In this document: piece after piece, positions 3,891 through 56,121 of the stretch
How positions within the stretch are numbered: position 1 is the stretch's first letter
Layout of the letters: each line of letters opens with the position of its first letter
Assembly (NCBI GenBank): GCA_903828455.1
Contig: CAIKMJ010000073.1
Coordinates: 1-64,000 of the forward strand
Source: an uncultured Acidobacteriia bacterium
Lineage (GTDB): Bacteria > Acidobacteriota > Terriglobia > Bryobacterales > Bryobacteraceae
DNA length: 64,000 nt
Reading direction: 5' to 3'
Notes under the pieces: generated by a model
What the model was told of the DNA's origin: nothing
The model's database searches: none
The model's input: only the letters and a program-made list of their open reading frames with translations
Translations under genes and position numbers: made by a program

Positions 3891-3934
3891 GTACCGCTTC
3901 ATCACCGCACCCTGCCAACCCGGCCCGGCTCAGC

Positions 3935-4046
3935 TTTATAAACAAGCAACTTCATAAACAAGCAGCTTCATAAACAAGCAGCTTCATAAACAAGCAGCTT
4001 CCTAAACAAGCGGCTTCATAAACAAGCAGCTTCCTAAACAAGCAGC
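3935..4046. repeat. Seven tandem copies of a 16-bp repeat
   Basis: Seven head-to-tail copies of TTCATAAACAAGCAGC with minor changes (for example CCTAAA for CATAAA in copies 5 and 7). The period of 16 is not a multiple of three, and every unit contains TAA, so the array is not coding. It lies between the GlcG-like gene and the promoter of the Oar-like receptor. The core TAAACAAGCAGCTTC resembles the 22-bp array at 411-476. Confidence 0.92.
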
Positions 4047-4091
4047 TACCCCGCCTTCATTCACCAACCGCCGCGCCGGAAGAAAGCACCT

Positions 4092-43979: not shown

Positions 43980-46900
43980 TTAGAAGATCACCTTCAGCGC
44001 AAGTGTAATGGACCGGGCAGGGCCAATCTGGTTGGCACCGAGACTTCCTGCGATCGGATTCAGCGTGGGAGTGAAGTTACTGGCAGCCGTCCCGCCATTT
44101 TGGAAGATCTGGGTCCCGTTGGTGGGCCCGGCGCTATTGATCTGCAGGTTCGGATGATTCGCCAGGTTGGCGACTTCCGCCCGGAACTGCAGGTCGAACA
44201 ACTCGGAAATCTTCGATATCCGGGTGTCCTTCAATATGCCCAGAGACACGTTCTGGAAGGACGGACCGACAACCGAGGTCCGGCCAAGATTACCGAACGT
44301 ACCGACGGCTTGCAGCGAGTAGCAGGCCGGGTTAAACCATTGAGCGGAGGTTTGCACCGCCGGATACACCTGGCAGCCAACGACCGCATTCGGGCGATCC
44401 GCACCACCCGAATTAGCGGCCAGCCCGGACCGCGCGAACCCGGCGTAGACCGTGTTGGGGGCGCCGGTATTGAATTGATACACGGCGGTCAGCTTCCAGC
44501 CCTTGACGAACTGGTTCTTGGTGAACGGGAGCTCATAAACGGTATTGGTCCGGAAAACGTGGGTGCGGTCAAAGGTGGAGCGACCGTAATCCAGCCTGGT
44601 GTTGTACGGATCCTCCACCGACAGGTTGTTGCCAATCGCAGTATCCATGGAGAAGGCCGAACCGTAATCCAGCGACTTCGAATAGGCATACGAAATCTGG
44701 CTGGAAAGGTGGTTGGCGAACCGGCGGGTGACGCCAACCTGCAGCGCATTGTAGTTGGAACTTCCCACCGTGGCCCGCATGGTGAGCTGGCCCAGCTTCG
44801 GATTGAGCAGCGGATTCGGAGTCGTGTTTCCATTGGCAGCCAGTGTGCCGAAGGCGCCGTTGATGTTCTGCGAGGGATTCTGATTGAGCGCCTCCAGCAG
44901 GTGGACGCCGCGCGACCCCACGTACGCCACTGTCATGATGGTGCCCTTGTAAATATCGCGCTGAATATTGGTGTTGTACTGCATGGCATAAGGCGTGCTG
45001 ATCTTGCCGCTGCCATACAGCAGGCCCGACGCGATGGAGGGCGGCGGAATATTCACCGGGTTCTGGAAAACCTGATAAGGATTCGGCCACGGCGGATTAC
45101 TCACGGTAGCCGTAACGTTTGGATAGTTGCTGTAATACGAAGGCAGAACAATGTGGCCCGTCATCTCGTCGTAGAAGATGCCAAAGCCGCCGCGGATGGA
45201 AGTCTTGTGATCGTTAAACGGATCGAAGGCGTAACCGAAGCGGGGCGCAAAGTTCTTGTTGGTCGGATTGTTGGCGAACGCGTTCGGAACGTTCACCCAT
45301 GTGCTGTTGGTGGTGGGGCTCGGGAAGGTGTAGAAGTTGTTCCTTCTTTCGCTGGGATTGTTCATCCATTCGTACCGCAAGCCGATATTCAGCGTCAGCC
45401 GGCGCGACACTTTCCATTCGTCATGGATGTACGGCGTGACCAGTTTCTCCGCCATGTCTCGATTCGGGTAGCCGAGGCCCGGCACCACAGCCTGGATCTG
45501 GCTGGGCAAACCCTGAAGGAACGTCAGCAACGTCTGGAACGTTACGCCGCCACCAATGGCAGTCGGCTGCGAGGTGAAATCCAGCGTGTAGGTGTAGGCA
45601 ACGCCAAACTTGAAGCTGTGCGAACCGTGCGTCCAGATCACGTCGTTCATGCCTTGAAAACCATCCTGCGTCTGGCTGAACGGAACGCCCTGGTTGGGCC
45701 CGAGTTCGCCGCGCGGGCCGCCCGCAATCTGAAACTGACCGCTGACAGCCGAGCCGGGAACGACCTGCAGTGCCGGGTAATTCGGGTTGTTCTGGCTGCC
45801 CTTCTCCTGCGGACGCAAGAAACTGATGCGGGCCAGATTGATCATGCTGGGCGAAATCGTGTGCCGCTCTTCCAAAGTGGCGTAGAAGTTGGCGGTCGCG
45901 TCATTCTCGAAATACACGCCCGGGCCGGCCGTGGACATCCGGTGCGCCTGCTCGTTGACCATCCGAAGAAAGATCGTGTCGCGGTCGGAGATCGTGTAGT
46001 CGAGACGCCCCAGTGTGTAGTTGTCGTAGTTGGCCGTGGGGTTCAGCTGAATTTCAGTACCCAGTCCGGTGGGCTGGCCGTTCGGCTGAAAAGATTGCGT
46101 CTGGACCAGCGGCAGCAGGTTCATGATGGGCTGGATCTGCGGCGCAAAGCCAACATACGCGAGGTTGGTGGTGTTGTTACAGGCATACGTCGGCGATACG
46201 CCGGGAAGACTGCATGGAACGTAGCCCTGATGGGCGTTGTTATCGGGCAGGTTCTGATTGATCGTGCTGGCTTCGGCCTGCGAGCGCAACGCCTCGAAGT
46301 TAACGAAGAAGAACAGTTTATTTTTCTTGATCGGTCCGCCCAGGCTGGCTCCCGCAACGAAGGTGTGCGACGGGGCCACATGGCCGACTTTCTGGCCGGG
46401 CAGTACGGTCAGATCGGAAATTTGCCGGGCATTCAGGGCGCTGTTTCCGAAGAAGCTGTAAGCGGATCCATGATAAGCGTTGGTGCCGGATTTGCTGGCC
46501 GCGTTGACCACAATTCCATTGCCGCCGAACTGCGCGCTATACGTGTTCGTCAAAACCTGAAACTGCGAGAGAGCCTCAACGCCCGCCGAGGTACCTGTAC
46601 CGCCGGAGCCGGCGGACTTGCCGGTGAACGTCGTCAGGTTGGTGCTGTCGATCAGGAAGCCCAGACCAGTGGGGCGCGATCCCGATACCGTATAGTTGGC
46701 CTGGTAGCCATAGACGTTGCCGCCATTCCCGCCGGGAATAGCTGCAACTCCCGGCGCGAAATTGATAATATCCACGAAATTGCGGGCCGTGCCCATCGGC
46801 AGATCCGAGATCTCCTGTTGATCAAATATGACGCTCAGCGCCGCGGTGGAGGTGTCCACCTGCGTGACTTCCGTATCGACGGTTACTACCGAGCTGGCCT

Positions 46901-47252
46901 GACCGACCGGGAGAGTAACATCGGCGACCGATTCCTCGCCGACCACTGTTTTGATGCCGGAGCGCACCACGGTCTCAAAACCCGGATGCTCGACGCGAAC
47001 TTCGTAATTGCCTAAGACCACTTCCGAGGCGCGATACAAGCCTGCAGCGTTGCTCGTCAGGTTCGCGGTCACACCGGTGTCGAGGTTCTTTACCGCAACC
47101 TTCGCGCCAACGACCGCCGCGCCCGAGCTATCGGTCACGGTACCTGAAATGGTGGAAGAGCTGGTCTGCGCGAATAGTGATTGCACAGCAAGAGCAATCA
47201 GCAACGCGGCCACTGGGAAACAATGCTGGATCCTGGTCACGATACGTTTCAT
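43980..47252 (-). CDS. Oar-like TonB-dependent outer-membrane receptor
   Basis: A 1,090-residue protein from the ATG at 47252, which follows GGGAGG (an upstream start at 47336 adds residues before the signal peptide). Signal peptide through 'LAVQSLFAQ'. The carboxypeptidase-regulatory-like domain ('ISGTVTDSSGAAVVGAKVAV'), plug ('QEISDLPMGTARNFVDIINF') and barrel ('NIGLRYEWMNNPSERRNNFY') closely match the receptor at 4174, and it ends in Phe ('LALKVIF'). Ligand unknown. Upstream (47325-47344) is a partly palindromic sequence, AATACTAT-AGTAGTGTT-like, that could be an operator. Confidence 0.9.
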   Translation of the reverse strand: MKRIVTRIQHCFPVAALLIALAVQSLFAQTSSSTISGTVTDSSGAAVVGAKVAVKNLDTGVTANLTSNAAGLYRASEVVLGNYEVRVEHPGFETVVRSGIKTVVGEESVADVTLPVGQASSVVTVDTEVTQVDTSTAALSVIFDQQEISDLPMGTARNFVDIINFAPGVAAIPGGNGGNVYGYQANYTVSGSRPTGLGFLIDSTNLTTFTGKSAGSGGTGTSAGVEALSQFQVLTNTYSAQFGGNGIVVNAASKSGTNAYHGSAYSFFGNSALNARQISDLTVLPGQKVGHVAPSHTFVAGASLGGPIKKNKLFFFVNFEALRSQAEASTINQNLPDNNAHQGYVPCSLPGVSPTYACNNTTNLAYVGFAPQIQPIMNLLPLVQTQSFQPNGQPTGLGTEIQLNPTANYDNYTLGRLDYTISDRDTIFLRMVNEQAHRMSTAGPGVYFENDATANFYATLEERHTISPSMINLARISFLRPQEKGSQNNPNYPALQVVPGSAVSGQFQIAGGPRGELGPNQGVPFSQTQDGFQGMNDVIWTHGSHSFKFGVAYTYTLDFTSQPTAIGGGVTFQTLLTFLQGLPSQIQAVVPGLGYPNRDMAEKLVTPYIHDEWKVSRRLTLNIGLRYEWMNNPSERRNNFYTFPSPTTNSTWVNVPNAFANNPTNKNFAPRFGYAFDPFNDHKTSIRGGFGIFYDEMTGHIVLPSYYSNYPNVTATVSNPPWPNPYQVFQNPVNIPPPSIASGLLYGSGKISTPYAMQYNTNIQRDIYKGTIMTVAYVGSRGVHLLEALNQNPSQNINGAFGTLAANGNTTPNPLLNPKLGQLTMRATVGSSNYNALQVGVTRRFANHLSSQISYAYSKSLDYGSAFSMDTAIGNNLSVEDPYNTRLDYGRSTFDRTHVFRTNTVYELPFTKNQFVKGWKLTAVYQFNTGAPNTVYAGFARSGLAANSGGADRPNAVVGCQVYPAVQTSAQWFNPACYSLQAVGTFGNLGRTSVVGPSFQNVSLGILKDTRISKISELFDLQFRAEVANLANHPNLQINSAGPTNGTQIFQNGGTAASNFTPTLNPIAGSLGANQIGPARSITLALKVIF

Positions 47253-47324
47253 CCGAAGGAACCTCCCTGATCTGCCCCGTGGGTGTGCTGTTGCCAGCTC
47301 AGGTGCAGAATAGAAACCCGGACC

Positions 47325-47344
47325 AATACTATTCAAGTAGTGTT
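47325..47344 (-). promoter_or_regulatory. Partly palindromic operator-like site before the second receptor
   Basis: On the minus strand AACACTAC and ATAGTATT face each other around 4 bases (6 of 8 positions match as an inverted repeat). It is 73-92 bp before the receptor start in an AT-rich stretch. Possible repressor site; no regulator is known. Confidence 0.3.
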
Positions 47345-48953: not shown

Positions 48954-51900
48954 TTACTGAACCGTGATCACCGGACCCGGTTGCGTTTGGACGCCATTCA
49001 CTGTCGCCTGGATCGACCTGTCGCCGCTGCCCACACTCGGCACTGTCAGATTGAACTGATACAGCCCCGCGCCGGTGATCCCCGCAAAGCTAACGTTCGC
49101 CGGCACGCCGCCGACTGTAATAGTCACCGGATTCACCGTCGGCGCGGCGCCGCTGAACGGTTGCCCCGCAGGAACCGGCGGATTCGTCGGACCGAAGCCC
49201 ACCCCGAACAACTCAAGCACTTCGCCCGCTTTCACAGCCCGCGTGCTGAAGGGGAACGCCCCTGCCGGTCCCAACAGATCGTATGTGCCGCCACCGTAAG
49301 CTCCCGTACCCGCCGGGGTAAGGATCACCGCTGCCGCGTGCTTGCCATCCAGCAGGCTGAACGAGGGACTAGCCGGCGCCAGCGTCACCGTCGATGAAAA
49401 ACTTCCGTGCAGCGTTGTCACGACTACTGTCACCACGCCGGTCGCCGTATCGTCCGGCGCCTGGACGTTAATCTGCGTCGGGCTCACGTACCAGAGGTAC
49501 GCTGCCTTACCATTGATCGTCACACTGACGCCGCCCAGCGTCGTCGGGAAATCGCCGTTCCATGTGGCCGTCGAATCAGAGAGATTCGTTCCGTAGATTG
49601 AGATCCACGAACCCGCCTCGATCGAAGTGAGCGTGCTGTAAACCGGCACAATACCACTGGCGCTGATTACCGGCGCGTTCGAGGCCAGTATCGTCAGCGT
49701 CACCGGAACCTTGGCCGAAGCAACTCCGTCCACCAGCGTTACTGTGCCCGAATAAGTTCCGGGCCCCAGGTTCGCCACGTTCACAGTAACCGGCACGGAA
49801 CCCGGCGTCTGCCCTCCTGCTGATGACACCGACAGCCAGTTCCCGCCGCTCACGGTAGAGGCCGCGGCCGTGTAGGTCAGCCCGCTGATGTTGCCCGTGA
49901 CCGCGATCGACTGCGGAGCTGGTTTGCTCGTGCTGCCCTGCTGATACGTGAAGCTCAGTGACTGCGGCGCTGCCGTCAGCTTCGGCGGGTCAGCCACCGT
50001 CATCGTGATCGATGCGGAAGCGGATGGCGGCGGCACAGAGCCATCTACCGCCGTGAAGCTAACCGTTCCGGTCAGAACATTACCGGACCCGAAGCGTGAG
50101 GCATCCGTGGTAATTGTCACCGTTCCCGTATAAGTAAACGTAGTTCCATCGAACCCGGTCTGCTTCATGTTGACCGATGCCGGCGACACCGTCAGCCAGG
50201 TGATTCCGCTGTTGCTCGTAGCGGTGACCGCGGCCTGCAACTGCGGACCGGTCGCAAGTAAGTTCTGGTATGTCACGGTGACGGTCTGCGAACTGGTTGT
50301 TCCTACCGGCACGCTGAAATTCAGGCTGGTTGGTGCAGCCGCCAGCGTGCCGACGATAGATCCCACTCCGCCCCCGCCGCCACCGCCGCCCCCACCGCCG
50401 CTGGTGGACGCCGGGTTAATCACAAACGTCTGCGTCACAGGTGTAGCCGCGGCGTAGTTCGCGTTGCCTGCCTGGCTGGCGGTGATCGAACACGTGCCAG
50501 CCGTGAGCGGCGTCACCGAGGAACCGCTGACCGTGCAAACACTGGTGGAGTTCGACGCGAAGCTCACCGTCAATCCCGAACTCGCGGTCGCGGTCAGTGA
50601 AAGCGCCGAGGCCGGCAGGGTAACTGTTCCCGGCGCATTGAACGTAATCGTCTGCGTTCCCTGCGTCACACTGAACGTCTGCGTGACCGGTGTCGCCGCT
50701 GCATAGTTTGCATTGCCAGCCTGGCTCGCCGTGATCGAACAAGTGCCAATAGCCACAAGTGTGACTGTCGATCCCGACACCGTACAGATGCCCGTGCTGT
50801 TCGATGCAAACGTCACCGTCAGCCCCGAGGTCGCCGTCGCGCTGATCGAAAACGGCGCAGTCCCGAACGACTGTCCGCTCTGCGTTCCGAAAGTAATCGT
50901 CTGCGAACCCTGCGTCACGCTGAACGTCTGCGTGACCGGTGTCGCCGCTGCATAGTTTGCATTGCCAGCCTGGCTCGCCGTGATCGAACAAGTGCCAATA
51001 GCCACAAGTGTGACTGTCGATCCCGACACCGTACAGACGCCCGTGCTGTTCGACGCAAACGTCACCGTCAGTCCCGACGTCGAAGTTGCGCTGATCGAAA
51101 ACGGCGCAGTCCCGAACGACTGTCCGCTCAACGCTCCGAACGTAATCGTCTGCGAACCCTGCGTCACGCTGAACGTCTGCGTCACCGGTGTGGCAGCGGC
51201 GTAGTTCGTGTTACCCGCCTGGCTCGCCGTGATCGAACAAGTGCCCGTAGCCACAAGTGTGACTGTCGATCCCGACACCGTACAGATGCCCGTGCTGTTC
51301 GACGCAAACGTCACCGTCAGTCCCGAGGTCGCCGTTGCGCTGATCGAAAACGGCGCCGTCCCGAACGACTGTCCGCTCAGCGTTCCGAAAGTGATGGTCT
51401 GCGAACCCTGCGTCACGCTGAACGTCTGCGTCACCGGTGTGGCCGCGGCATAGTTCGTGTTACCAGCCTGGCTCGCTGTGATCGAGCAGGTCCCCAGTGC
51501 CACCAGCGTGACCGTCGTCCCCGACACGGTACAGATGCCCGTGCTGTTCGATGCAAACGTCACCGTCAGCCCCGAGGTCGCCGTTGCGCTGATCGAAAAC
51601 GGCGTCGTCCCGAACAGCTGACTGCTCAGCGTTCCGAAAGTGATAGTCTGCGAACCCTGCGTCACGCTGAAAGTCTGCGTCACCGGCGTCGCCGCCGCGT
51701 AGTTCGTATTACCCGCCTGGCTCGCTGTAATTGAGCACGTGCCGACAGCAACCAGCGTCACCGTCGTCCCCGACACCGTGCAGATACCGGTGCTGTTCGA
51801 CGCAAACGTCACGGTCAGACCCGAGGTCGCCGTCGCGCTGATCGAAAACGGAGCAGTCCCCAACGGCTGACTGCTCAACGTTCCGAACGTAATCGTCTGC

Positions 51901-54900
51901 GACGTCGGAGTGACTGTAAAAGTTTGCGTCACGGATGTGGCCGCAGCGTAGCTCGTATTGCCAGCCTGGCTCGCTGTGATCGAACACGTCCCGAGCGCCA
52001 CCAGCGTTACCGTCGTCCCCGACACGGTGCAGATGCCGGTGCTGTTCGACGCAAACGCCACCGTCAGGCCGGAAGTCGCCGTCGCGCTGATCGAAAACGG
52101 AGCACTACCCAGCGCCTGGTTGCTCAAAGTTCCAAAGGTGATGGTCTGCGTTGCCAGAACCTGAATCGACAAACTCTTCGGGGCTGATACGACGGCCGCG
52201 CTGTCCTTCGCCGTGACAGAGAAACTGTACGGACTCCCTGCCGCCGATGTCGGAGTACCGCTGATCAGGCCAGTCGAAGTATTCAGCGTCAGTCCCGGCG
52301 GCAACGCTCCGGTCGTCACCGACCATGTATAGGGCGCCGTGCCGCCGTCCGCGGTCAGCGACTCCGAATAGCCTGTCCCTGCCGTGGCCGTTGCGAGAGT
52401 CGTGCTGGTTACCGCCACCCCCGCGCCGGACTGCGTGATGTTAAATGCCGTAAGGTTTCCCAGCGAAAAACCGAGCGTCCGCGACACACCGGAGAGGTTC
52501 GCCGCAATGGTCAGACTGATCGTGCCGTTGCCGGTTCCGGACGCCCCGGAATTGACCGTGACCGTCCCTGGAAAGTTGTTCGTCAGCACCCACGGACATC
52601 CCGCCGTGACAGTCAGAGGCACCGTGACGGGCCCGCCGGCCGCGCTCACCGTATAACCGCTGCTGCCCGCCGAATAGGTACATGAACTGCCAGGCTGGGT
52701 AATCAGAATGTTCTGGCTGCCGATCGTCAGATTCGCGGTTTGCGAACCAGTGTCTGGCCTCGGTGTCGTCTGCACAAAAACGTAGCCCGAGCCGGTCCCC
52801 GAAGCCCCGTTGGAAACAACCGCCCAGGACTGATTCGTCGAAGCTGTCCACGCACAACCGCTCGGCGCGGTTACGCTGAAAATCAGCTGTCCTCCGGTGG
52901 TCGGTCCGAGCATGCTTCCGGGGCTGGCCGTAACGGAACACGAAGCCGTTGCATCGGAAATCTTTGCCAGAAACACGCTTCCGGACTGAAATGGCGCGGA
53001 CGTGACCGGCACGCTTCCATAGCCGACGACAAAGGCATTCCCCGCCCCGTCGGTCGCAACAGAATAGGGCTGAGCAATGCCAGAGCCCCCCAGGTAGGTC
53101 GACCAGAGCAACGCGGAGCCAGTGCTGTTTAGTTTCGCGGCAAACCCCGTCGGAATCACTGCACCGGTGAACGTGATGTGAGCATTGTTGGAAGGATCAA
53201 CCGCAAGCTGCGCGGATTGGTCCCAGTTCGCCAGTTCGGGCGTCCAGGTTTGTGCGCTCCACGTTGCGCCTCCGTCGACTGAATGCTGAACCGCTCCGGA
53301 TTTCCCGCTGAAAACATAGACTACCGACGGATTCCCCGGGGCCACTGCCACGGACCCGGCTCCGGTCACTCCCGAAAGCGTCGGCCACGTGCTGCCGCCA
53401 TCGGTCGACTTGTACATCGCGTAATAAGCCGCATAGTAGACCGTGGTCCCTGCAGCCGCTAATCCGAAAGGTTGCTGGTACGGAGCCTGCGCCAAAACCT
53501 GAGTCCAGGCTGTTCCCTGATTCGTGCTCTTGTAGATGCCGCCGCCGTTGACAGCCGCATACACCGCGCCATCGGTCGTAACGGCCACGGAATTCACACC
53601 CGTGGTCCAGGTGTTTCCGGCCACCGACGTCCAGGTCGCGCCTCCGTCCGTCGACCGATACATTGAATTCGCAGCCGAACTGGAAAAGTTGGCGTAGTAG
53701 GCGTAAACCGTATTCGCGGTCGATGGGTCGCCCGCGAGCCCCGAAACGAGCTGCGAGGGAACGCTGCCCATCAGCGTCCACGTTGCGCCGTCGTCCGTGG
53801 AACGGTAGACAGAACCGCTCTGCGTCGCTGCGTAAATCGTCGTTGCGGTCACCGGACTGCGGCCGATATACGAGGGCGTCTGGGAGCTTTGCTGTGTCCA
53901 CGAAGTCCCTCCGTTCGTCGTCCGGTAAATACCGCCGTTGGTGAGGACCACGGCCGAACTCCCCGACGGGTTGAACGATATCTGGGACACGGCGGCCGGG
54001 AGGTTCAAATCGAAGGCGGACCAGGTGGCCCCGGAGTCCGGGCTCTGAAACAAAGAAGTTGTGATCGCGTTCTGACTCTGCACCGCTCCCACGGTCGGAA
54101 AGTTGTCCGAACTCGTCGAGCCCGCCACGTAGACATTGCCCGAGCCGTCGATGGCCAGGCCGGAAGCGGCGCTCCCGTGATTGCCGCCAAGATACGAAAT
54201 GTAGCTGAACACACTCCCGGCTGCGTTCAGTTTGGCCACGAACGCGCTCTGTGCGCCAGCGTAAGTTGTCTGCGCAGCGCCGGCAGTCGCAAGACCGGAC
54301 GAGCTTGTGGTACCGGCGATGTATGCATTTCCTCCCGTATCCACTGCGATCGTGGCCCCGGAATCGGCGTTTGCGCCGCCGAGAAACGTGAAGTACAAAA
54401 GCGCCGTCCCCGTGGGGTTGAGCCGGGCAACAAACGCGTCTCCCGAACCGCCATATGTTGCCTGCGCGCCGCCGCCGGGAGCGCCGGTGAAGGTCGCGGA
54501 ATTGGCCGATCCCGTCACGTAAGCCGTTCCGGACGTATCCACCGCGATTCCCGCGCCGGAGTCTGTGCCGCTGCCTCCGAGCAGGGTCGAATACTGCAAC
54601 GCCCCGGTCGGGCTGTATTTGGCGACAAACGCATTCTGCGATGCCGAGGTGGACTTCAGGACGCCCGCTGTCGTGGGAAATCCGGAAGACGCGGAACCGG
54701 TGACGTATCCATTGCCCGAACCATCTATTGCGATCCCGGCGCCCGCATCGTACCCGCTGCCGCCAAGAAATGTGGAAAACTGCAGTGCGCCTGTCGAACT
54801 CAGCCGTGCCACAAACGCGTCGCCGCTTCCGCCGCTTAGCGACTGCGCCGCATTCAGCATCGGGAAATCTGCCGAACTCGTGCTGCCCGTTATCCAGGCC

Positions 54901-55949
54901 GAACCGCTCGAATCGACTGCCATCCCGGCCACCTGATCGCCACCCGATCCGCCGAGATATGTCGAATAGATCAACGTCGTACCGGCAGCGTTGATTTTTG
55001 TCACGAACGCGTTGTATGCGCCGGAACCGGACAGACCGCTTTGCACCGCATTTGCCACGGATAAGTCGGTTGCCTGCGTGGCTCCGGCTATCAGAATGTT
55101 GCCCGAGGAGTCGAGAGCAACAGCGCTGCCTGTCGCATAGCCCGTTGCGCCCCCGAAAGCAAACGCATTTACAATCGTCGGGTCGATCACAAGTGCCCGC
55201 GTCCTGTCCCAATGCTCCACGCGAAAGGCAACCTCATCCTGTCCCGTGATCGCAAACCGCCCCGGCACGCTCTCCCGCGCTCCGTTCACTTCCTGATAGA
55301 TCCGCGGCAGCGTGATCCGCAACCCACCCGCCGCCTCGCCCAATTCGAGCGCGCCGTCTGCTCCAAGGCGCACCCCGTCCGCGCCGCTCACCTTCATCCG
55401 GATCAATCCCGGGTCGGCGCCGGCCTTCACCACCAGGTCGAACTCGATTTGGCGCTGCGTCCCGTAATAGACGACGTCGATCCCTGGGTACACGTCCGCC
55501 CACGACACTTTGTCATACGTCGGCAGCCCGATCTGCCACGTCTTCGGATCGTTACCGCGAATGTAATTGATCTTGCCCGGCAGTTCCGTTCCGGGTCGGG
55601 CGTGCCCCGCGTGCCCACCGGCAAACTCGAGGGCAACCACGCTGCCGTCTTTACCGGACTGCGTACGCGCCATCGCAACCGTGGCCTTTGCCTTCTCCAG
55701 CGCAACGGTATAACCCTGGCTGCGCGCGACAAAGCGGTCGCCTCCGCCCGGCGCCCGTTCGAAGGCCAGCGGTAACCGCGCGAAGGTCTCCCGCGCCCGT
55801 TCCCGCAGCTCTTGTTGGGCCGCCGGCTCGATCGGTCCGCCCTGAATCCGGGATGACGCAACCTGTGCAGCCGCAACGCTTTCCAGCATTCCGACCGAAA
55901 CGAGAATGGAAAGAAGCAAGAACGAAAAACGCCGACGCCGTTGTGGCAA
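48954..55949 (-). CDS. Giant exported repeat protein: SBBP and Asp-box propellers, BACON/Ig-like domains, 83-residue repeats
   Basis: A 2,331-residue protein. The TTG at 55949 follows GGAGG and opens a signal peptide ('MPQRRRRFSFLLLSILVSVG'); an upstream GTG at 56012 is less likely. In order: an N-terminal domain before SBBP repeats (about 30-265), SBBP beta-propeller repeats (about 280-616; 'STYLGGSGGDQVAGMAVDSS'), seven Asp-box motifs (such as 'STDGGATW', about 620-890), two BACON-like domains (about 1000-1165), an Ig-like domain ('APYTWSVTTGALPPGLTLNT'), seven 83-residue repeats (about 1264-1846), an 11-glycine linker, two more BACON-like domains, and a Solibacter-type C-terminal domain ('ISIYGTNLSDSTATWNGDFP', 'LELFGVGFGPTNPPVPAGQP'). 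Likely a cell-surface or extracellular adhesin/binding protein. Confidence 0.85.
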   Translation of the reverse strand: MPQRRRRFSFLLLSILVSVGMLESVAAAQVASSRIQGGPIEPAAQQELRERARETFARLPLAFERAPGGGDRFVARSQGYTVALEKAKATVAMARTQSGKDGSVVALEFAGGHAGHARPGTELPGKINYIRGNDPKTWQIGLPTYDKVSWADVYPGIDVVYYGTQRQIEFDLVVKAGADPGLIRMKVSGADGVRLGADGALELGEAAGGLRITLPRIYQEVNGARESVPGRFAITGQDEVAFRVEHWDRTRALVIDPTIVNAFAFGGATGYATGSAVALDSSGNILIAGATQATDLSVANAVQSGLSGSGAYNAFVTKINAAGTTLIYSTYLGGSGGDQVAGMAVDSSGSAWITGSTSSADFPMLNAAQSLSGGSGDAFVARLSSTGALQFSTFLGGSGYDAGAGIAIDGSGNGYVTGSASSGFPTTAGVLKSTSASQNAFVAKYSPTGALQYSTLLGGSGTDSGAGIAVDTSGTAYVTGSANSATFTGAPGGGAQATYGGSGDAFVARLNPTGTALLYFTFLGGANADSGATIAVDTGGNAYIAGTTSSSGLATAGAAQTTYAGAQSAFVAKLNAAGSVFSYISYLGGNHGSAASGLAIDGSGNVYVAGSTSSDNFPTVGAVQSQNAITTSLFQSPDSGATWSAFDLNLPAAVSQISFNPSGSSAVVLTNGGIYRTTNGGTSWTQQSSQTPSYIGRSPVTATTIYAATQSGSVYRSTDDGATWTLMGSVPSQLVSGLAGDPSTANTVYAYYANFSSSAANSMYRSTDGGATWTSVAGNTWTTGVNSVAVTTDGAVYAAVNGGGIYKSTNQGTAWTQVLAQAPYQQPFGLAAAGTTVYYAAYYAMYKSTDGGSTWPTLSGVTGAGSVAVAPGNPSVVYVFSGKSGAVQHSVDGGATWSAQTWTPELANWDQSAQLAVDPSNNAHITFTGAVIPTGFAAKLNSTGSALLWSTYLGGSGIAQPYSVATDGAGNAFVVGYGSVPVTSAPFQSGSVFLAKISDATASCSVTASPGSMLGPTTGGQLIFSVTAPSGCAWTASTNQSWAVVSNGASGTGSGYVFVQTTPRPDTGSQTANLTIGSQNILITQPGSSCTYSAGSSGYTVSAAGGPVTVPLTVTAGCPWVLTNNFPGTVTVNSGASGTGNGTISLTIAANLSGVSRTLGFSLGNLTAFNITQSGAGVAVTSTTLATATAGTGYSESLTADGGTAPYTWSVTTGALPPGLTLNTSTGLISGTPTSAAGSPYSFSVTAKDSAAVVSAPKSLSIQVLATQTITFGTLSNQALGSAPFSISATATSGLTVAFASNSTGICTVSGTTVTLVALGTCSITASQAGNTSYAAATSVTQTFTVTPTSQTITFGTLSSQPLGTAPFSISATATSGLTVTFASNSTGICTVSGTTVTLVAVGTCSITASQAGNTNYAAATPVTQTFSVTQGSQTITFGTLSSQLFGTTPFSISATATSGLTVTFASNSTGICTVSGTTVTLVALGTCSITASQAGNTNYAAATPVTQTFSVTQGSQTITFGTLSGQSFGTAPFSISATATSGLTVTFASNSTGICTVSGSTVTLVATGTCSITASQAGNTNYAAATPVTQTFSVTQGSQTITFGALSGQSFGTAPFSISATSTSGLTVTFASNSTGVCTVSGSTVTLVAIGTCSITASQAGNANYAAATPVTQTFSVTQGSQTITFGTQSGQSFGTAPFSISATATSGLTVTFASNSTGICTVSGSTVTLVAIGTCSITASQAGNANYAAATPVTQTFSVTQGTQTITFNAPGTVTLPASALSLTATASSGLTVSFASNSTSVCTVSGSSVTPLTAGTCSITASQAGNANYAAATPVTQTFVINPASTSGGGGGGGGGGGVGSIVGTLAAAPTSLNFSVPVGTTSSQTVTVTYQNLLATGPQLQAAVTATSNSGITWLTVSPASVNMKQTGFDGTTFTYTGTVTITTDASRFGSGNVLTGTVSFTAVDGSVPPPSASASITMTVADPPKLTAAPQSLSFTYQQGSTSKPAPQSIAVTGNISGLTYTAAASTVSGGNWLSVSSAGGQTPGSVPVTVNVANLGPGTYSGTVTLVDGVASAKVPVTLTILASNAPVISASGIVPVYSTLTSIEAGSWISIYGTNLSDSTATWNGDFPTTLGGVSVTINGKAAYLWYVSPTQINVQAPDDTATGVVTVVVTTLHGSFSSTVTLAPASPSFSLLDGKHAAAVILTPAGTGAYGGGTYDLLGPAGAFPFSTRAVKAGEVLELFGVGFGPTNPPVPAGQPFSGAAPTVNPVTITVGGVPANVSFAGITGAGLYQFNLTVPSVGSGDRSIQATVNGVQTQPGPVITVQ
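50413..52156. repeat. Seven tandem 249-bp repeats inside the giant protein gene
   Basis: Each unit encodes 83 residues beginning 'QTITFG' and containing 'CTVSG' and 'GTCSITASQAGN'. Units 2 to 6 are nearly identical at the DNA level, unit 1 and unit 7 (beginning 'QTITFNAPGTVTLPASALS') are more diverged, so the middle copies arose by recent duplication or gene conversion. The first unit in the coding direction ends near 52156 and the last near 50413. Confidence 0.9.
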
Positions 55950-56121
55950 ATGAATCCTCCGCTGGCGGGAACGGCACGCCAGTCCTACGGTCAGTATAAG
56001 CCCCGGAGGCACGTATTGTCCCCCAAATTACCGACTCGCGCGGGCGGATAAATCTGAGACCGCAAACTATTTCTTACTCTTGCTGTCAGCTACTTCAGCA
56101 ATGAACCCAACGGTAAAAAAA

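Follow-up and report, generated by a model that had tools for sequence, protein, structure and literature searches.

What does a block of 249-bp tandem repeats encode within a 7-kb bacterial gene, how did it arise, and can its copy number in a draft assembly be trusted? These questions were raised by a stretch of 64,000 nucleotides from an uncultured Acidobacteriia bacterium (Bryobacteraceae; GenBank assembly GCA_903828455.1, contig CAIKMJ010000073.1, positions 1 to 64,000; hereafter the window), in which a first-pass annotation had noted such repeats. Our analysis pointed, with a probability that we put at about 80%, to a large modular protein, probably exported, that carries a tandem array of bacterial immunoglobulin-like (Ig-like, Big) domains; the array would have grown by duplication and exchange and would act as a stalk or spacer.

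Seven In-Frame Units Under Purifying Selection

Seven units of 249 bp (u1 to u7 in the direction of translation) were found head to tail at 50406-52148 on the reverse strand (7 × 249 = 1743 bp), each comprising 83 codons and with zero indels throughout. Tandem Repeats Finder called a repeat of period 249 at 50640-52104 (score 2013). At a lag of 249 bp, the best identity in the window was 0.956, as compared to a maximum of 0.394 over 50 shuffles in which dinucleotides were approximately kept; on these two results, a chance origin of the array was rejected. The first-pass annotation had thus correctly given the number, period and in-frame 83-residue length of the units, as well as the size of the gene (Table 1). 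The array that it placed at 50413-52156 was also recovered, with coordinates 7-8 bp off the phase used here for unit boundaries, a phase which is arbitrary.

Its description of the middle five units as almost identical in DNA did not hold. Pairwise identities among u2-u6 were 0.839-0.944 in DNA and 0.892-0.952 in amino acid sequence, no two units of the array were the same in DNA, and the longest exact repeat in 50301-52300 was a 118-bp stretch shared by u5 and u6. Among u2-u6, synonymous divergence (dS) was 0.138-0.714 and nonsynonymous divergence (dN) 0.022-0.060, with dN/dS ratios of 0.036-0.224. The protein was therefore conserved by purifying selection while silent sites drifted.

Units Are Predicted to Adopt an Ig-Like Fold

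When u2-u6 were scored together, they matched Big_3_5 (PF16640) with 39.8 bits, above the curated threshold of 35.5. Two-unit rows, 43 in all, were taken from the window and named genomes; at E 0.01, Big_3_5 was detected in 23 of them and Big_2 in six, while GBD_ATRN and HL_N-beta each appeared in seven. A profile of the 43 rows matched intimin in the PDB (E 0.0008); when only the seven units were used as query against PDB sequences, one weak match resulted (E 0.49). An AlphaFold model of u4-u5 had a mean predicted local distance difference test score (pLDDT) of 97.0 and a predicted template modelling score (pTM) of 0.75. The top structural match to this model was Leptospira LigA (Z 11.3, root-mean-square deviation (rmsd) 6.2, 150 residues aligned). 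A Big_2-CBM56 structure (7r3t; Z 10.1, rmsd 1.7, 76 aligned) and intimin (2zqk; Z 8.3, rmsd 2.2, 74 aligned) were also matched, and a Foldseek list was headed by internalin K, the SraP binding region and cadherins, with modest TM-scores. On the basis of these profiles and the model, each unit is predicted to be a bacterial Ig-like (Big) domain with a beta-sandwich fold. Exactly two cysteines occurred in 288 of 350 collected units, which suggests one disulphide per unit.

Probable Growth by Duplication and Exchange Beside a Probably Older Terminal Unit

Mean DNA identity between units decreased with their distance in the array (0.850, 0.818, 0.788, 0.748, 0.719 and 0.647 at lags 1-6), as expected from repeated single-unit duplication. 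The most alike pair, u5/u6, adjoins u7. A Sawyer-type permutation test on the 43 silent polymorphic sites of u1-u6 yielded p = 0.0005 for summed squares, which is the floor for 2000 permutations. The longest shared silent tract, between u5 and u6, covered 31 of the 43 sites (p = 0.0015), and a tract shared by u4 and u5 covered 21. Tracts longer than those obtained by permutation point to exchange between units. It would be improbable, in our estimate, that protein selection alone, without DNA exchange, kept the units similar. The dN/dS ratios of 0.04-0.22 among u2-u6 are what such selection would give, but it does not account for the silent tracts of u4, u5 and u6 or for the decay of silent identity with lag. 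Moreover, median adjacent dS was at least 1 in 49 of 68 sampled related arrays of at least two units, and yet the domain persists in them.

The collected units comprised 366 minus those of the duplicate loci L098 and L111. They originated from 67 loci chosen among those fetched, 59 of which retained units, with stretches picked among the matches listed; unit matches that covered 65 or fewer profile positions or had E above 1e-5 were dropped. Among these 350 units, each of u1-u6 had its best DNA match within its own array. In contrast, u7 was best matched by the last unit of an array on another contig of the same genome (C28; identity 0.751) and not by its neighbours. This match indicated that u7 is probably an older terminal unit that predates the split of the array gene and the C28 gene, and that u1-u6 expanded later.

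Most likely, judging from sequence comparison, the array has grown by single-unit duplication and in-array exchange beside this older unit. Past growth in copy number by in-frame duplication, as proposed in the first-pass annotation, is well supported by the decay of identity with lag, the silent tracts and a best N-terminal homologue that is free of the array. The dS values of 0.14-0.71 among u2-u6 argue against a very recent expansion. The identities place the newest duplications next to the probably older terminal unit on the C-terminal side of the array. In the proposed mechanism, unit-unit recombination would change array length in steps of 83 residues, and such changes would now be slow because the units have diverged.

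Architecture of the Array Protein

A GGAGG motif at 55956-55960, six bases 5' of an in-frame TTG at 55949, was read directly from the DNA and lies before the likely start of the gene (Table 1). Domains were called on the protein with Pfam and NCBIfam scans. The seven-unit array sits between an N-terminal head and a C-terminal region, whose score places the protein among the Solibacter C-terminal domain proteins (TIGR03437). An assignment of the array to a beta-propeller was rejected, since both the best SBBP match and the best BNR match precede it in the protein. The protein is probably exported or secreted, and a surface location is plausible in view of its signal-peptide-like N-terminus (judged by eye) and of domain types that are usual outside the cell. 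From fold and arrangement, the array may form a rigid stalk or spacer that separates the beta-propeller/BNR head from the Soli_cterm region.

Table 1. Features of the array gene; positions refer to the window.
Feature	Position	Strand	Remarks
Gene	48954-55949	(-)	2331 amino acids from likely TTG start; ~7 kb
Mechanical open reading frame from GTG	48954-56012	(-)	2352 amino acids
Signal-peptide-like N-terminus, MPQRRRRFSFLLLSILVSVGMLESVAAAQ	55863-55949	(-)	judged by eye, without predictor
DUF7948 (PF25778)	55176-55736	(-)	154.3 bits; cut-off 27
SBBP beta-propeller repeat (PF06739), best of six	54861-54971	(-)	152.3 bits for whole protein; cut-off 20.5
BNR-type stretch (Sortilin-Vps10, PF15902)	53616-53930	(-)	63.1 bits; cut-off 33
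Ig-like unit u1	51900-52148	(-)	most diverged of u1-u6; DNA identity 0.767-0.823 to u2-u6
Ig-like unit u2	51651-51899	(-)	
Ig-like unit u3	51402-51650	(-)	
Ig-like unit u4	51153-51401	(-)	
Ig-like unit u5	50904-51152	(-)	DNA identity to u6 0.944, dS 0.138
Ig-like unit u6	50655-50903	(-)	
Ig-like unit u7	50406-50654	(-)	DNA identity 0.639-0.667 to u1-u6; probably older terminal unit
Poly-glycine linker, C-terminal side of array	50367-50399	(-)	
Soli_cterm C-terminal domain (TIGR03437)	48957-49625	(-)	168.3 bits; cut-off 29.05; residues 2130-2352

Several observations weigh against a stalk of Big domains that grew by duplication and exchange. Two single units that were tested scored 18.4 and 19.8 bits, under the Big_3_5 cut-off, and this family was absent from the whole-protein Pfam scan at E 0.001. 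Phage Ig-like domains and cadherins also matched the u4-u5 model at Z 8-10 and Ig-like folds are common, so that the fold says little on function. As the longest two-domain superpositions mostly had a high rmsd and the pTM of the model was 0.75, we only infer a rigid arrangement between domains. The stalk role is proposed, from fold and arrangement only, for a protein for which the Pfam and NCBIfam scans listed no anchor or barrel domain and no recognisable adhesive or lectin domain, stalk-type Ig-like domains being present. Mutation or codon constraint that varies along the unit might account for part of the clustered silent identity. Finally, there was no general polarity of growth: in 34 runs with at least four units, the pair of highest identity could be at any place, and growth at one end was rejected as a general rule.

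Comparison With Known Stalk-Type Arrays

The window array is an ordinary tandem array of stalk-type Ig-like domains, of a kind that is already known, with Ilm and the Periscope Proteins as nearest examples. Among the titles and abstract openings listed by literature searches, none described the window array, and TIGR03437 was not mentioned in the papers that one of these searches listed. The comparisons below refer to excerpts of the cited papers.

Like the Periscope Proteins (PMC8201768, PMC9704523), the window protein carries in-frame tandem domains that each exceed 50 residues and fold on their own, here by prediction. For the Periscope Proteins, a change of domain number by homologous recombination has been proposed (PMC8201768, PMC9704523). 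Their repeats are described as 'highly identical', a term for which the excerpts gave no numeric cut-off; DNA identity among the five middle units of the window array is 84-94%. Between-strain length variation is the defining property of the Periscope Proteins, which are also attached to the cell. The genomes compared here represent one per species, and no second isolate of the window's species was recognised in the genome scans. An actively length-variable surface stalk of this type, with a copy number that differs between present-day isolates, is possible, but we lean against it. In-frame units of this size with a predicted Ig-like fold, the 118 identical bp of u5 and u6, the exchange tracts, and the repeat-number variation that is documented for such proteins (PMC8201768) are consistent with it; unit identities well below 100% and the dS range among u2-u6 speak against it.

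Ilm (yrIlm) of Yersinia ruckeri, a surface adhesin, similarly contains tandem Ig-like domains in a large protein, encoded by repeats of ~300 bp (PMC6868369). In the excerpted description, Ilm has more than 20 units identical in DNA and a C-type lectin cap (PMC6868369), in contrast to the 84-94% identity and the lack of a listed lectin in the window protein. Fibrillar adhesins combine an adhesive domain with stalk domains (PMC8286594). LigA, the top fold match, shares 24% sequence identity with the units and is a host-interacting protein from another phylum. Ilm is reportedly an inverse autotransporter with a barrel, a domain not listed for the window protein.

The locus provides a clear snapshot of growth and decay of a stalk array, with units graded from 94% to 65% identical, exchange tracts and related arrays at other stages.

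Related Arrays and Modular Build

Two other array genes of the same genome, on contigs C72 and C28, encode the same Ig-like unit. The C28 gene also shares the same kind of terminal unit, a glycine-rich linker and the C-terminal region, which is 82% identical in DNA to that of the array gene. The two differ from the window gene in their surrounding domains (by eye, FG-GAP-like for C72 and NHL-like for C28) and in a mean adjacent unit identity of 0.58-0.78, as compared to 0.85 in the window array.

Among 41 genomes, the best N-terminal homologue (52% amino acid identity over residues 31-1264) was found in genome G005, and its similarity ended at the start of the array (residue 1268). The 4154-amino-acid open reading frame (ORF) concerned contained no QTITF-like motif and no match to the unit profile. 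The contig of this homologue and that of locus L091 (uncultured Acidobacteriia bacterium VK_bin-1616) are apparently one and the same, with a common match end. When nine window genes were compared with the surroundings of the homologue (L058), only an ASPIC gene matched besides the array gene; this match was weak (27-30%) and lay within the homologue's own ORF, so that conserved gene order was not supported. The comparison covers one side, as the L058 contig begins ~0.7 kb before the homologue gene.

C-terminal homologues were viewed in eight regions of other genomes. In G005, G002, G015 and G007, the C-terminal part was a separate ORF of ~800 amino acids adjoining a unit-bearing ORF, which preceded it in the first three and followed it in G007. 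Units and C-terminal part occurred in one ORF, like in the window gene, in G009 and in G003, where the match crosses one TAG. No units were seen beside the C-terminal homologue in G016, and the eighth region, in G017, gave no clear picture. Of the 61 genomes searched, 22 had a match to the unit profile (the window's own genome counted) and 39 had none. The 22 comprised 18 of the 19 members of the genus, again counting the own genome, together with three further members of the family and one of the class. Related arrays also occurred in named records of Bacteroidota, Verrucomicrobia, proteobacteria and others. The maximum adjacent identity of the window array (0.944) was the second highest among the 68 sampled arrays.

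A broader interpretation, which we regard as unlikely, is that an array, an older terminal unit and Soli_cterm form a genus-wide exchangeable module of exported proteins, in which stalk length would grow independently per gene. Short-read genomes would, in that case, consistently lack the youngest arrays, those most variable in length, since these break contigs, and free-living bacteria would hold an unrecognised Periscope-like set.

Two related arrays showed patterns of their own. A locus on CAIRSA010000376.1 (L092, 140-3118) contained twelve Ig-like units of two alternating types, with DNA identities of 0.69-0.73 at even lags and 0.59-0.60 at odd lags, a difference that probably reflects duplication of two-unit blocks. 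In Candidatus Symbiothrix dinenymphae (L096 and L104), a 17-unit run was found at L096 7488-11480 with neighbours up to 0.923 identical, and cysteine was absent from all 24 units identified in the two loci.

Contig Ends and Copy Number

Related arrays frequently coincided with contig ends. The C72 and C28 arrays both reach contig ends, and these ends share 123 identical bp, which indicates that a single very large gene was probably split within its Ig-like array, with one half on each contig. The open frames of C72 and C28 (L055 and L054) encode 954 and 2222 amino acids. In the scan of named genomes, nine of 31 matches were no more than 100 bp from a contig end, where random placement would give 0.47; all nine overlapped the array part of the query, which four of the 31 matches did not. 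Similarly, 11 of the 68 arrays with known contig position were 250 bp or less from a contig end. The longest exact repeat had a median of 32 bp in edge arrays and 12 bp in others (one-sided Mann-Whitney p = 4.6e-5, a guide only, since resemblance to the window determined which arrays were sampled, several belong to a common gene or genome, and those at edges are partial). Three arrays away from contig ends, including that of the window, reached 102-119 bp, and none of the 57 such arrays exceeded 119 bp.

The arrays of C72 and C28 that reach contig ends with 123 bp in common, the excess of matches near contig ends and a maximum of 119 bp that fits a k-mer ceiling would all be in line with an assembled copy number made wrong by collapse of identical copies, a concern of the first-pass annotation. 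For the window array itself, we consider such an error very unlikely. Its contig (122421 bases) continues 50 kb past the array on one side and 70 kb on the other, exact repeats within the array reach 118 bp at most, and all units differ, a divergence that makes silent collapse less likely; an extra identical copy would more probably break the contig than vanish silently. The concern was therefore warranted for the related arrays and much less so for that of the window. Ilm repeats are likewise described as breaking or shortening short-read assemblies (PMC6868369). Because related arrays lie at contig ends above chance, long reads are needed before copy numbers, or even gene ends, of such proteins in draft assemblies can be relied upon.

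Other Features of the Window

Some distance downstream of the array gene, at 43980-47336 (-), the window encodes an OMP_b-brl_4 outer-membrane barrel protein of 1118 amino acids with a carboxypeptidase-regulatory-like domain. A 16-bp unit, CAGCTTCATAAACAAG, is repeated in tandem at 3931-4047 (7.3 copies) in an apparently intergenic position, and two adjacent copies of this unit (at most three mismatches) occurred only there in the own genome. At 408-477, a 22-bp unit, ACTTACTAACTAAGCAGTTCCT, is present three times and by eye resembles the 16-bp unit.

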